Source: Candidatus Methanomethylicaceae archaeon (GTDB lineage: Archaea; Thermoproteota; Methanomethylicia; Methanomethylicales; Methanomethylicaceae). Taken from it: 33,418 nucleotides of DNA. Shown in pieces: positions 26,693-31,560 of this stretch (its first letter is position 1; the number at the start of each line of letters is the position of its first letter). The stretch spans positions 13,499 through 46,916 of the forward strand of contig JANXER010000001.1 in NCBI GenBank assembly GCA_025057955.1. Direction: 5' to 3'. Both the position numbers and the translations under genes were made by a program. A model generated the notes under the pieces. That model had not been told where the DNA came from, made no database searches, and was given only the letters and a program-made list of their open reading frames with translations.

Positions 26693-27922
26693 ATGATGCA
26701 CCCATCTAAGGATATAATGTTTAAGAAGAGCAAAATACTTGAGGGGAAAAAAATAGCCCTCTGTACTTGTGGAAGTGTAGCTATACTAAAGGCTCCAGAA
26801 TTAGCACGTGAGTTAATGAGAAATGGAGCAGAGGTTTTTGTAATAATGTCATATAATTCTCAAAGGCTAATTTCTCCAATAATGTTGGAATGGGCAACTG
26901 GAAATCCCGTAGTTACAGAAATTACTGGAAAAATAGAACACATAATGTTAAGTAAAAGTGTGGATCTTGTAATCATAGCTCCAGCCACTGCTAATACCAT
27001 TGGTAAAATAGCAGTAGGAATAGATGATACTCCAGTAACCTCCTTGGTATCCTCAGCATTAGGATTTGGAGTACCAATTTTAATAGTTCCAGCAATGCAT
27101 GGTTCCATGTATAAAAATCCCATGGTATTGAAAAATATGGAGAAGCTAGCCTCAATGGGAATAAGAATAATTCAACCAGAGATGGTTGAAGATAGAGCTA
27201 AGTTTCCTGATATAGAAGATATCATGGAAGAAGTAATAGCAATACTTCATAAAAAGGATCTTACTGGAAAGCGGATATTAATAACCGCTGGACCAACAAG
27301 ATCCTATATTGACTCTATAAGATTTCTTACAAACTCTAGCTCAGGGAAAATGGGATATGCTTTTGCTAAAGAAGCTTATGCAAGAGGAGCAAATGTAACG
27401 CTCATATCAGGGCCTTCCAATATTCATCCACCTAAAAAAATAAGAACAATATATGTTGAAACAACTGAGGAAATGCTCAATGCTGTGAAAAATTGCCTCT
27501 CTGAAAGTAAATATGATATAATAATAATGGCAGCTGCTCCATTGGACTTCGCAGTAGAAAATAAACATGAAGGGAAAATATCTAGCAACTCCTCTCTAAC
27601 CATTAAATTAAATCCACTTCCAAAAATAATAGAAGTAGCTAGAGAGATGGCAAAAGATGCCTTTATAATAGGATTTAAGGCTGAATATGGCTTAAGAAAA
27701 GAGGAGTTAATTTCTAAAGCTAAAGAGAAATTGCTCGAATGTGGAGCAGATTTAATTATTGCTAATGATTTATCCACACCATTTACAGGCTTCAGTTCAG
27801 ATACTAATGAAGTTTATGTTATTGATAAATTTGGCTCAGTAATTCATATGCCACTTGCTTCCAAGCGAGAAATTGCAAGTAAAATATTAGATATTTACGT
27901 GAGGTTATGTAAAAATGTATGA
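26693..27922 (+). CDS. coaBC: Bifunctional phosphopantothenoylcysteine synthetase/decarboxylase
   Basis: Adds cysteine to 4'-phosphopantothenate using CTP and then decarboxylates it to phosphopantetheine; FMN-dependent. 409 residues. The CoaC part (about 20-190) has KKIALCTCGSVAILKAPELAREL, the catalytic-His segment GKIEHIMLSKSVDLVIIAPATANTIGKIA, and PAMHGSMYKNPMVLKNMEKL. The CoaB part has RILITAGPTRSYIDSIRFLTNSSSGKMGYAFA, IMAAAPLDFAVE and IGFKAEYGLR. The frame is open from ATG 26693, but a second ATG at 26717 with AAGGATAT upstream and a TATA-like TTTATAT at 26674-26680 make the shorter start plausible. First gene of the CoA operon; overlaps the next by eight bases. Confidence 0.95.
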   Translation: MMHPSKDIMFKKSKILEGKKIALCTCGSVAILKAPELARELMRNGAEVFVIMSYNSQRLISPIMLEWATGNPVVTEITGKIEHIMLSKSVDLVIIAPATANTIGKIAVGIDDTPVTSLVSSALGFGVPILIVPAMHGSMYKNPMVLKNMEKLASMGIRIIQPEMVEDRAKFPDIEDIMEEVIAILHKKDLTGKRILITAGPTRSYIDSIRFLTNSSSGKMGYAFAKEAYARGANVTLISGPSNIHPPKKIRTIYVETTEEMLNAVKNCLSESKYDIIIMAAAPLDFAVENKHEGKISSNSSLTIKLNPLPKIIEVAREMAKDAFIIGFKAEYGLRKEELISKAKEKLLECGADLIIANDLSTPFTGFSSDTNEVYVIDKFGSVIHMPLASKREIASKILDIYVRLCKNV

Positions 27923-28772
27923 GGCTTATGTTCCAGCTCATATAACAGGATTTTTTAAAATTCATCTTTCTGATAATCCATTATTCACAGGATCAATAGG
28001 TGCTGGAATATGTTTGGATTTAGGATTAAGAACTTTTGTTAAAGTGGAAAGAGGAAGTAACATAAAGCTATTTTTCAATGGTAGTGAAATTGATTCAGAA
28101 ATCATAAGAATTATATTGAATAAAATGGAAGTAAATGATGAAATCTCAATTATTGCAAAACAAGAGTCTCCATTTTCCATAGGTTATGGATATGGAATGA
28201 GTGGAGCATCAATATTGGGGCTTGCTTTAGCAATTAATAAAGCCTTAGGGGAGCCCTTTAAAAAAGAGGATATTGGAAGAATTGCACATGTAATAGAAGT
28301 TGAAGGGAAAACTGGATTGGGAGATGTCTTAGCACAAATGGTTGGAGGATTTGAACTAAGAACTAAACCTGGAGCCCCTGGCTTTGGAGAAATAAAAAGA
28401 TTATCCCATCCAGAAGGATGGCTTGTGGTTACTACACCAGTGAAAATGAGGAAAACTTGCGATTTAATCGCCAATTATCATAAGATTAATGAAGTTGGAG
28501 ATTTATGCTATAAGGAATTTCTAAAAAATCAAAATATAGAAAATTTCATTAGAATTTCTAAATATTTCTGGGATAGATTAGAAATAATAGATCAAGATCT
28601 TATTAAAGTTGCAAAAATTTATAAAAATTATGGAATAGAGCATATATCCTTCAAAAAGGGAATTGTATATGGTATTGTTCGCAATGAGGATTTTCCATTG
28701 GAAAATGGAGTTTTTGAAAAAAATGGAATCAAATTAATTGTCTCAAGAATTTCCAATAGAGGTGCTTATTGA
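27915..28772 (+). CDS. Pantoate kinase (archaeal GHMP kinase)
   Basis: Phosphorylates pantoate to 4-phosphopantoate, the archaeal entry to CoA in which phosphorylation precedes condensation with beta-alanine. 285 residues. The GHMP pattern is VPAHITGFFKIHLSD at the start, then the nucleotide loop GYGYGMSGASILGLALAIN, and EGKTGLGDVLAQMVGGF. The first motif matches pantoate kinases. It is embedded between coaBC and the phosphopantoate ligase gene with overlaps on both sides, confirming pathway membership. Confidence 0.93.
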   Translation: MYEAYVPAHITGFFKIHLSDNPLFTGSIGAGICLDLGLRTFVKVERGSNIKLFFNGSEIDSEIIRIILNKMEVNDEISIIAKQESPFSIGYGYGMSGASILGLALAINKALGEPFKKEDIGRIAHVIEVEGKTGLGDVLAQMVGGFELRTKPGAPGFGEIKRLSHPEGWLVVTTPVKMRKTCDLIANYHKINEVGDLCYKEFLKNQNIENFIRISKYFWDRLEIIDQDLIKVAKIYKNYGIEHISFKKGIVYGIVRNEDFPLENGVFEKNGIKLIVSRISNRGAY

Positions 28773-29548
28773 TGGGAGTTAAATTAAGAATTCCTGAGAA
28801 TCATCCAAGAGCGAAATCGCTCAAGGAGAGAATGTTAATTATAGAGTGTGAGAAAAAGGGCATTGTTGCAAAGGCAGGACTTATAGCTCATGGAAGAGGG
28901 GAGGCCTTTGACTATATTATAGGTGAAAACACCATACCTCCTGCGCTTTTTGCAACAAAGGCTGCAGCAGCTGCTATGTTATTAGCAAAAAGGCCTGTGA
29001 TTTCAGTTAATGGAAATGCGGCAGCCTTAGTACCTAAAGAGTTGGTGATGCTGTCTAAAGAACTTAATGCTCCATTGGAAGTAAATTTATTCTTTAGAAC
29101 TAAAAGAAGGGAGGAGGCCATTAAAAAGCATCTTTTGGCTCATGGTGCAGAGCTTATTTTAGGGGTTGGAAGGGATGCAAGTGCCATAATACCAGAGCTA
29201 TTTAGTGAAAGAAGAAGAGTTGATCCAAGAGGCATATATTCAGCAGATGTTGTATTAGTTCCTCTTGAGGATGGAGATAGAACATATGCATTGAAGAAAA
29301 TGGGAAAATTTGTAATTGCCATTGATTTAAATCCTCTCTCAAGAACTGCTCAAACTGCCGATATAACAATAGTGGATAATATTGTAAGGGCTATTCCAAA
29401 TATGTTAAGATTCATAGAAGAATTAAAAGGAGCTTCATTAGAAGATTTGGAATCGATAGTTTCTAGATTTGATAATAAGAAGAACCTCTCTGAAACTATA
29501 ATCTACATAAGAGATAGATTAACAAAGCTGAGTAGAGAGGGAAATTAA
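28772..29548 (+). CDS. 4-phosphopantoate--beta-alanine ligase
   Basis: Joins 4-phosphopantoate and beta-alanine with ATP to give 4'-phosphopantothenate; the archaeal replacement of PanC. 258 residues. RIPENHPRAKSLKERMLIIE at the start, then GLIAHGRGEAFDYIIGE, KRPVISVNGNAAALVPKELV, RREEAIKKHLLAHGAELILG and RRVDPRGIYSADVVLVPLEDGDR match the archaeal family (former DUF137). ATG 28772 is chosen because GAGGTG stands six bases ahead; a TTG lies one codon before. It overlaps the kinase stop by one base and is followed immediately by the S-component gene. Confidence 0.94.
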   Translation: MGVKLRIPENHPRAKSLKERMLIIECEKKGIVAKAGLIAHGRGEAFDYIIGENTIPPALFATKAAAAAMLLAKRPVISVNGNAAALVPKELVMLSKELNAPLEVNLFFRTKRREEAIKKHLLAHGAELILGVGRDASAIIPELFSERRRVDPRGIYSADVVLVPLEDGDRTYALKKMGKFVIAIDLNPLSRTAQTADITIVDNIVRAIPNMLRFIEELKGASLEDLESIVSRFDNKKNLSETIIYIRDRLTKLSREGN

Positions 29549-30103
29549 TTGAAGAGGCGCACCATATCCTATATTGCACTATTTGGAGCACTCTCAATAA
29601 TAATGAGCTCTATAAGGGTTTCCTTTCCATTGGGGAATCCAAACTTAGGATCAACTCCTGTCTCTCTATCAGCCATGGTATTGAATGGATCTGCTGTTTT
29701 CATGGTAGGAATAATAAAGGGAATTGGAGTTTCCCTATGGACTGGTCAAGCACTGTTAGAATTACCAGCTGGATTTGGGGATGGAATCATGGGAATTTTC
29801 ACATGTCTTCTATGTAGAAAAATGAGGAAAACTTATGCAATTATTCTAGGGCAAATTTCACGCTATATATTCACCTCAGGAATGATAGCTCTAACTTTGG
29901 GAACTCTTCTTCTATTATCACCAGATGTAGTATTGCCATTAGTTGGAAAAATTATACCACCTAATCTTCAAACAAATTTATTACTTTCGAATATTATTGC
30001 AATATGGTCGGCCATGGTTCCAGCTATAACTGCATCCATAATTGCAAATGCACTACTATCGGCCATAATTAGTTTTGCTCTTGAAAAATATGTAAATCCT
30101 TAA
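29549..30103 (+). CDS. ECF-type vitamin transporter S component, probably for pantothenate or a precursor
   Basis: An integral membrane protein of 184 residues with about five or six hydrophobic helices. RRTISYIALFGALSIIMSSI near the start, then GNPNLGSTPVSLSAMVLNGS, then LPAGFGDGIMGIFTCLL are like S components of energy-coupling-factor transporters (small substrate-binding membrane units). The gene begins TTG directly after the ligase stop, so it is co-transcribed with coaBC, the kinase and the ligase. The substrate is unproven; context suggests pantothenate, pantoate or beta-alanine. The EcfT/EcfA module is not in the window. Confidence 0.7.
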   Translation: MKRRTISYIALFGALSIIMSSIRVSFPLGNPNLGSTPVSLSAMVLNGSAVFMVGIIKGIGVSLWTGQALLELPAGFGDGIMGIFTCLLCRKMRKTYAIILGQISRYIFTSGMIALTLGTLLLLSPDVVLPLVGKIIPPNLQTNLLLSNIIAIWSAMVPAITASIIANALLSAIISFALEKYVNP

Positions 30104-30144: not shown

Positions 30145-31560
30145 ATGAAGGCCTCAACACTTCAATTATTTGAACACTTTGTCAATTTTCCCTTCACAAG
30201 AGGCATTCTGAAGAAGATGGTGAACTATTGTGATAAAGATAATGGAAATAGACTTGAGGTTGCCCTCGAATTATTCCTAGGAATTAGAAAATATGCTTGT
30301 TTAGAATGTAGATTAGCAGAAAGATCAATATCAAAACTAATAGAGTTAGGAGGAGGAAGTTTTGGAGTAAATGAGGAGGAGATAAAGTATAGATTCATGG
30401 ATGTATATTGGCGCAAAGGATTAATTAATGTTATAAAGGGATTAGCTTATTTTGGGGTTACAAAACCCTTTACCCCTGGAGCTCCATTTCAAGTGGTTTG
30501 GAATATTACCTATAGATGTAACTTAAGATGTAAACATTGTTATGCTGAAGCTGGAACTTCAGATTATTATGAATTAAGCACAGAAGAAGCTAAAATAGGC
30601 ATTAAAAAGCTTGCAGAATGGGGCATAGTAATATTAGCTTTTTCTGGTGGAGAGCCATTAATTCGTAAAGATATACTTGAGCTCTCAAAATATGCGAAGG
30701 ATAACAACCTCTATGTTGCAATAGCTACAAATGGAATTCTTCTTACAAAGGAAAAATGTGAAGAGCTTAAAAAAGCAGGAGTGGAATATCTTCAAATAAG
30801 CTTGGATGGAGCTAAGGCTTCTACTCATGATGGCTTTCGAGGGTTACAGGGAATATTTAATAAAACCATTGAAGGCATAAAGAATGCAGTAGATGAAGGA
30901 TTTTTTGTAAATGTTGCCACTACAGTAACAAATTACAATCTTTCAGAAGTTGTAGAAATAATAGATCTATGTGAATCTTTAGGAGTAAATTGGTTTATGA
31001 TGTATAATTTCGTGCCCACTGGAAGAGGAAAGGATATAGTTGAAAAAGATTTAAAACCAGAAGAGCGTGAGGAGCTCTTGAAAAAACTTTGGAATAAACT
31101 AAAAAGCTGTAAAATTAGCGTTCTTTCTACTGCACCACAATTTGCTAGAATTGCCTTACAAACTGAGGGAATTGGTTGTAATATAATACCAACACACTTC
31201 TATAATTCTGAGTTACATGGTCAATTGAGATCGTTATCAGACTTCATTGGAGGTTGTGGTGCTGGTAGATTTTACATAGCAATAAATCCAAACGGTGATA
31301 TAACACCATGTGTTTATTTTCCCTTAGTTATTGGAAATATTTTAACTTCAAATCTTGAAGAGTTGTGGATTGAGTCAAAAGAGCTTAAGGAATTAAGAAA
31401 TAGAGATTTACTTAAACCAAATTGTGGCAATTGTAATTATAGATATGTTTGTGGTGGCTGTAGAGCAAGAGCTTATGGATATTTTGAGGATTATTTAGCT
31501 CCTGATCCCGGCTGTCTTTTGAATAGACATGCTTATGATAAAATAGGGGATTTAGCATAA
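30145..31560 (+). CDS. Radical SAM protein with SPASM-type C-terminal cluster domain
   Basis: Uses a [4Fe-4S] cluster and S-adenosylmethionine for radical chemistry; target unknown. 471 residues. A 110-residue N-terminal extension has its own pair in YACLECRL (Cys 52, 55). The radical SAM core begins VVWNITYRCNLRCKHCYAEAG with C125-x3-C129-x2-C132, followed by AFSGGEPLIRKDI and LQISLDGAKASTHD. The SPASM-like tail has GGCGAGRFYIAINPNGDITPC and the cysteines CGNC, CGGC and PGC. Families with this layout make heme (AhbC/AhbD), modify peptides or serve cofactor synthesis. Its neighbours (S component, argG) do not decide. It begins ATG 30145 with no evident ribosome site. Confidence 0.85.
   Translation: MKASTLQLFEHFVNFPFTRGILKKMVNYCDKDNGNRLEVALELFLGIRKYACLECRLAERSISKLIELGGGSFGVNEEEIKYRFMDVYWRKGLINVIKGLAYFGVTKPFTPGAPFQVVWNITYRCNLRCKHCYAEAGTSDYYELSTEEAKIGIKKLAEWGIVILAFSGGEPLIRKDILELSKYAKDNNLYVAIATNGILLTKEKCEELKKAGVEYLQISLDGAKASTHDGFRGLQGIFNKTIEGIKNAVDEGFFVNVATTVTNYNLSEVVEIIDLCESLGVNWFMMYNFVPTGRGKDIVEKDLKPEEREELLKKLWNKLKSCKISVLSTAPQFARIALQTEGIGCNIIPTHFYNSELHGQLRSLSDFIGGCGAGRFYIAINPNGDITPCVYFPLVIGNILTSNLEELWIESKELKELRNRDLLKPNCGNCNYRYVCGGCRARAYGYFEDYLAPDPGCLLNRHAYDKIGDLA

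Follow-up and report, generated by a model that had tools for sequence, protein, structure and literature searches.

A predicted pantoate-binding S component of an ECF importer in the CoA operon of Methanomethylicota

The gene at positions 29549 to 30103 (+ strand) of the window, by which we mean the whole 33,418-nucleotide stretch analyzed here, is likely to encode the substrate-binding S component of a vitamin-type (group II ECF) importer with pantoate as its substrate, a substrate read from genome context. With somewhat less confidence, we favor a broader reading: that the protein founds a new family of ECF S components specific to pantoate, that pantoate rather than pantothenate is the B5 vitamer exchanged by these methyl-reducing methanogens, and that import and synthesis have traded places within a single operon on at least two occasions. 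The window comes from a 1.21-Mb MAG (94% complete) of the Methanomethylicota (Verstraetearchaeota).

An S component behind the PoK and PPS genes

The S gene encodes 184 amino acids from a TTG start. Its first base lies directly 3' of the TAA stop of the gene for 4-phosphopantoate--beta-alanine ligase (PPS; 28769 to 29548, + strand), which confirms the original prediction that no base separates the membrane protein gene from the phosphopantoate ligase gene before it. PPS was recognized with PF02006 (E = 4e-76) and NF041123 (over cut-off), and its ORF has a TTG start with an ATG one codon later. Upstream on the same strand are pantoate kinase (PoK; 27915 to 28772), a protein of the GHMP kinase fold, and coaBC (26693 to 27922), which encodes phosphopantothenoylcysteine synthetase/decarboxylase (TIGR00521, 387 bits, over cut-off). 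The best NCBIfam models for PoK were all pantoate kinases, each below its own cut-off (NF041122, E = 9e-39, below the curated cut-off), and the assignment also draws on synteny. With PoK at that strength, the profiles agree with the earlier reading of these three genes as producing phosphopantetheine from pantoate. The gene for the next pathway step, coaD (phosphopantetheine adenylyltransferase; 2021 to 2545, − strand; NF001985 over cut-off), lies away from the operon.

On the other side, a NirJ2/AhbD-like radical SAM/SPASM gene (30145 to 31560) begins 41 bases 3' of the S gene, and argG is also downstream. Among the 15 loci of the order with an intact S gene, 14 have the radical SAM gene behind S (it was unrecognized in genome G012); the panE-panB loci of G002, G004, and G005 lack it. 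In G016 (L028:7676-10316), the two genes are separated by a stretch of about 2.6 kb whose small ORFs match nothing in the window.

By sequence, the S protein fails the cut-off of its nearest Pfam family and is not fileable as PanT, the bacterial pantothenate S component. The nearest family, PF07155 (ECF-ribofla_trS), gave an E value of 0.014 and 15.8 bits, below the curated cut-off of 26.7 bits. Among 15 aligned orthologues at E ≤ 1, PF07155 matched 5 (best E, 0.014) and the thiamine S-component family PF09515 matched 4. Assignment to the riboflavin or thiamine S components was rejected, since all of these matches are subthreshold. Profile search gave no known-family assignment, whether to biotin, thiamine, or queuosine, and sequence searches of the PDB returned chance-level rows only and no sequence relative.

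The fold is more telling. An AlphaFold model of the protein (pLDDT 87, pTM 0.84) was used as a Foldseek query against the PDB, and rows 1 to 26 were all S components (best E, 4e-4); the top rows include chains of RibU, ThiT, PanT, BioY, FolT, and CbiM. In a second look with VIA, ranks 1 to 22 were all S components, with Z scores from 15.3 to 10.6 over 150 to 169 residues; below them, among the families listed, came Lnt, cobalamin S components, and methane monooxygenase chains at Z scores of about 7 to 9. The protein resembles RibU, ThiT, and FolT in fold, length, and six-helix core (Z of about 13 to 15 for their best chains). Unlike them, it has no sequence match at a curated cut-off and carries conserved segments of its own, around residues 29 to 36 (GNPNLGST) and 57 to 78 (KG.G.S.WTGQ...E..AG.GD). 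Over 17 sequences, 41 positions are invariant, including N30, N32, K57, W64, Q67, E71, D78, and R105.

The AxxxA motif of S components is described as needed for docking on EcfT (PMC11109136, PMC4820897). In the S protein it lies in helix 1 (A10/A14) and is invariant in all 15 orthologues; its counterparts in the two distant homologues are AxxxS and GxxxA. We also considered a free-standing receptor with the related 5TMR fold and rejected it, because the 184-amino-acid ORF holds no signaling domain and the AxxxA motif is conserved.

EcfT, EcfA, and EcfA' are encoded consecutively on contig C49 of the same genome as the window, away from the S gene. No gene for an S-type membrane protein was found near them in the 20 kb read around that site, in line with a shared (group II) module. 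The module (L020) is flanked by an EF-G-type gene and by what seem, by eye, to be exosome and proteasome genes. Of the 23 genomes of the order, 21 have EcfT, among them every one of the 15 with an intact S gene. The ECF module on which the original prediction depended is thus present elsewhere in the genome, and the resemblance to S components that it had noted is borne out by the predicted fold, the AxxxA motif, and this module. With the marks of the superfamily present (a six-helix fold, AxxxA in helix 1, and EcfAA'T in the same genome), the identification of the product as an ECF S component is supported, weakly by sequence and strongly by the modeled fold.

Exchange of the S gene with panE-panB

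A search of the order with the S protein gave matches in 16 of 23 genomes (its own included), 15 of them intact and 1 decayed. In all six pairs compared, dN was well below dS (0.14 versus 0.78 for the window genome and its nearest relative); the gene is under purifying selection. In a sample of 398 genomes of the phylum, we found only two further full-length relatives, G347 and G372, which come from two distant families; this is a small set from genomes that are related and so are not independent samples. G347 belongs to a different family of the phylum and has no PanB; its gene order is pok-pps-S, with a 4-base overlap. In all 16 loci, G347 included, PPS and S lie close together, the extremes being an overlap of 17 bases and a gap of 4. 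In G372, the S gene is not adjacent to PoK or PPS, which counts against the pantoate reading. G372 also has a second, different S component (L136:12179-12976; PF07155 over cut-off) a few kilobases from its coaBC-pok-pps genes.

The locus was readable in 19 of the 23 genomes of the order; G001, G006, G007, and G011 had no PPS match and were excluded. Fifteen of the 19 carry an intact S gene without PanE, and the other four carry panE-panB and lack an intact S gene; whichever the state, all 19 retain PoK and PPS. Thus, S and the genes for making pantoate take each other's place against a constant background of PoK and PPS (15 versus 4 of 19), which is the mark that we propose for a pantoate importer. 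The Fisher figure for this exclusion, 2.6e-4, counts related genomes as if they were independent and should not be read as a true probability. Of the 23 genomes of the order, 5 gave a PanB match (PF02548) and 4 a PanE match over cut-off (PF08546); a further PanE match in G007 (E = 0.0035) fell below the cut-off and was not counted. In the window genome, neither PanB nor PanE was detected by profile search. The original prediction had asked whether these genes are missing; they are, and relatives without an S gene carry them in its slot, so that pantoate, which it had offered as an interesting alternative, is now the favored substrate.

In G002, G004, and G005, panE-panB sits exactly in the S slot (coaBC-pok-pps-panE-panB-argG-argH). 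Behind panB, G002 retains an S-like C-terminal remnant with a stop (profile E = 1.6e-5), in which 4 of the 10 invariant columns covered are kept. In G008, the slot holds a degraded S pseudogene, with pieces in two frames and an in-frame stop, and panE-panB lies on the same contig about 16 kb away (versus G002, PanB is 73% and PanE 66% identical). About half of the 38 invariant columns covered are changed in the pseudogene, including K57, W64, Q67, and E71. Its pieces are 34 to 47% identical to those of its genus (41 to 47% for the N-terminal piece), whereas the intact S proteins of the genus are mutually 68 to 95% identical; the CoaBC and PPS of G008 are 70 to 88% identical to those of the genus (78 to 88% for PPS). 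A tree of CoaBC, PPS, and ArgG places G008 inside the S-bearing genus, apart from G002 and from G004/G005, with 65% support for the placement of G002. Because G008 is nested among S-bearing genomes, the S gene was lost on at least two occasions, with panE-panB present each time.

One genome departs from this pattern. G009 (74% complete) is the only genome with an intact S gene in which PanB was also found. That PanB is on a separate 12.6-kb contig (C38, L118), which also encodes an ABC importer and a glycyl-radical enzyme with its activase; no panE accompanies it. It is 36 to 38% identical to the PanBs of the family, which are 69 to 80% identical among themselves. The contig is bacterial-looking and is likely a contaminant, although its G+C content of 0.56 does not set it apart.

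Candidate substrates

PanB and PanE together make pantoate. That panE-panB can replace the transporter in the same slot while PoK and PPS stay is most simply explained if the transporter delivers pantoate, and the retention of PoK and PPS in either state suggests that pantoate remains the entry point. Absence of PanB alone proves nothing: of the 398 phylum genomes, 202 have no PanB, and the majority of these also lack this S gene, so other archaea manage otherwise. Of the three substrates first offered, pantoate is probably the best supported, judging from genome context. The comparison of relatives favors it and makes pantothenate less likely, and beta-alanine finds no support, since the panE-panB pair that replaces S does not make beta-alanine.

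Pantothenate is the usual exchanged vitamer, and PanT chains are among the fold matches (VIA Z of 13.1 for 4rfs and 12.8 for 6zg3). The S protein might thus import pantothenate as PanT does, with an undetected pantothenate kinase or cleavage to pantoate to follow, but we consider this unlikely. PanT does not rank above ThiT, RibU, or FolT in the fold comparison. Import of pantothenate would require a pantothenate kinase and would leave PoK and PPS idle, yet the two enzymes that it would bypass are conserved in all 15 genomes with an intact S gene, and a search of the 23 genomes of the order gave no type III pantothenate kinase. Type II PanK likewise had no match in the 23, a result that is uninformative because the control genomes also gave none. 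Moreover, a gain of panE-panB would replace pantothenate import only if the cell already runs on pantoate.

There is a small chance that the substrate is an unrelated micronutrient (thiamine, riboflavin, beta-alanine, or another) and that the gene sits in the CoA operon by accident. The best subthreshold Pfam matches are to the riboflavin and thiamine S components, and the whole gene neighborhood is conserved in the family, as would suit such a reading. Against it stand the pok-pps-S order in a distant family and the alternation of S and panE-panB within one slot; PanE and PanB make none of beta-alanine, thiamine, and riboflavin. Smaller still is the chance that ketopantoate is imported and reduced inside the cell by another enzyme, such as ketol-acid reductoisomerase. 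Genomes with an S gene lack a PanB of the family's own type, which fits import of ketopantoate or pantoate alike. However, no genome with an S gene has PanE, and in all four replacements panE came together with panB. This suggests that an alternative enzyme for reducing ketopantoate was unavailable, and ketopantoate import would leave the gain of panE unexplained.

An RraA-type aldolase as an alternative source of ketopantoate in genomes with an S gene was also tried and rejected, because PF03737 matched none of the order's 23 genomes. A different CoA operon layout, coaBC-pok-[hexulose-6-phosphate synthase/RraA fusion]-panE-pps-mfnA, occurs in another family of the class, in G223 (L135:5263-11489) and G084 (L139:4815-11215), both of which are without PanB; the domain scan of the fusion covered G223. 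As pure conjecture, this fusion may be a missing ketopantoate-forming aldolase that works with formaldehyde. RraA-like matches also occur in the control genomes of Methanocaldococcus jannaschii and Methanosarcina acetivorans, where PanB had no match, and we found no open-license paper linking RraA to ketopantoate.

Possible pantoate salvage in Methanomethylicota

If the pantoate reading is right, the S protein would bind pantoate outside the membrane and dock through AxxxA of helix 1 onto the shared EcfAA'T encoded elsewhere. It would then topple, in the cycle known for other ECF transporters, and free pantoate into the cytosol. PoK and PPS would convert the imported pantoate to 4'-phosphopantothenate, and CoaBC would carry this on to 4'-phosphopantetheine. 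The organism would then be a pantoate auxotroph that salvages pantoate. PoK and PPS are described as standing in for the bacterial PS-PanK pair (PMC6650551).

Among the closest known systems is ECF-PanT of Firmicutes (4rfs, 6zg3), with which the predicted importer shares the S fold, a group II ECF module, and the supply of a CoA precursor. The two differ in sequence (13 to 15% identity over the structural alignment), in genetic setting, since the S gene here accompanies the archaeal PoK-PPS route, and in the predicted substrate, which here is pantoate. PanS, the known pantoate transporter and a member of the BASS family, is a secondary transporter of another fold, whereas the importer here is predicted to be ATP driven and to work with archaeal enzymes. 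The likeness to PanS of Salmonella, and to the panD-panC-panS operons of Clostridiales and related orders, is in predicted pantoate salvage beside pantoate-using enzymes (PMC6593275). A term search of the PanT paper PMC11521937 gave no mention of pantoate, and we found no report of an archaeal or ECF pantoate transporter in the open-license literature.

The genus Methanosuratincola is represented among the genomes with an S gene. For its described isolate, Methanosuratincola petrocarbonis LWZ-6T, the growth data in PMC12244365 give yeast extract as an essential growth factor and the Wolin vitamin mixture among the factors tested. This need would fit a demand that pantothenate does not meet, although yeast extract supplies much else. 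Archaea with PoK and PPS are not expected to use pantothenate, and their CoA salvage route should therefore carry pantoate. A dedicated pantoate importer, if confirmed, would be the missing piece of CoA salvage in these archaea and would give a concrete growth-factor prediction for Methanomethylicota.
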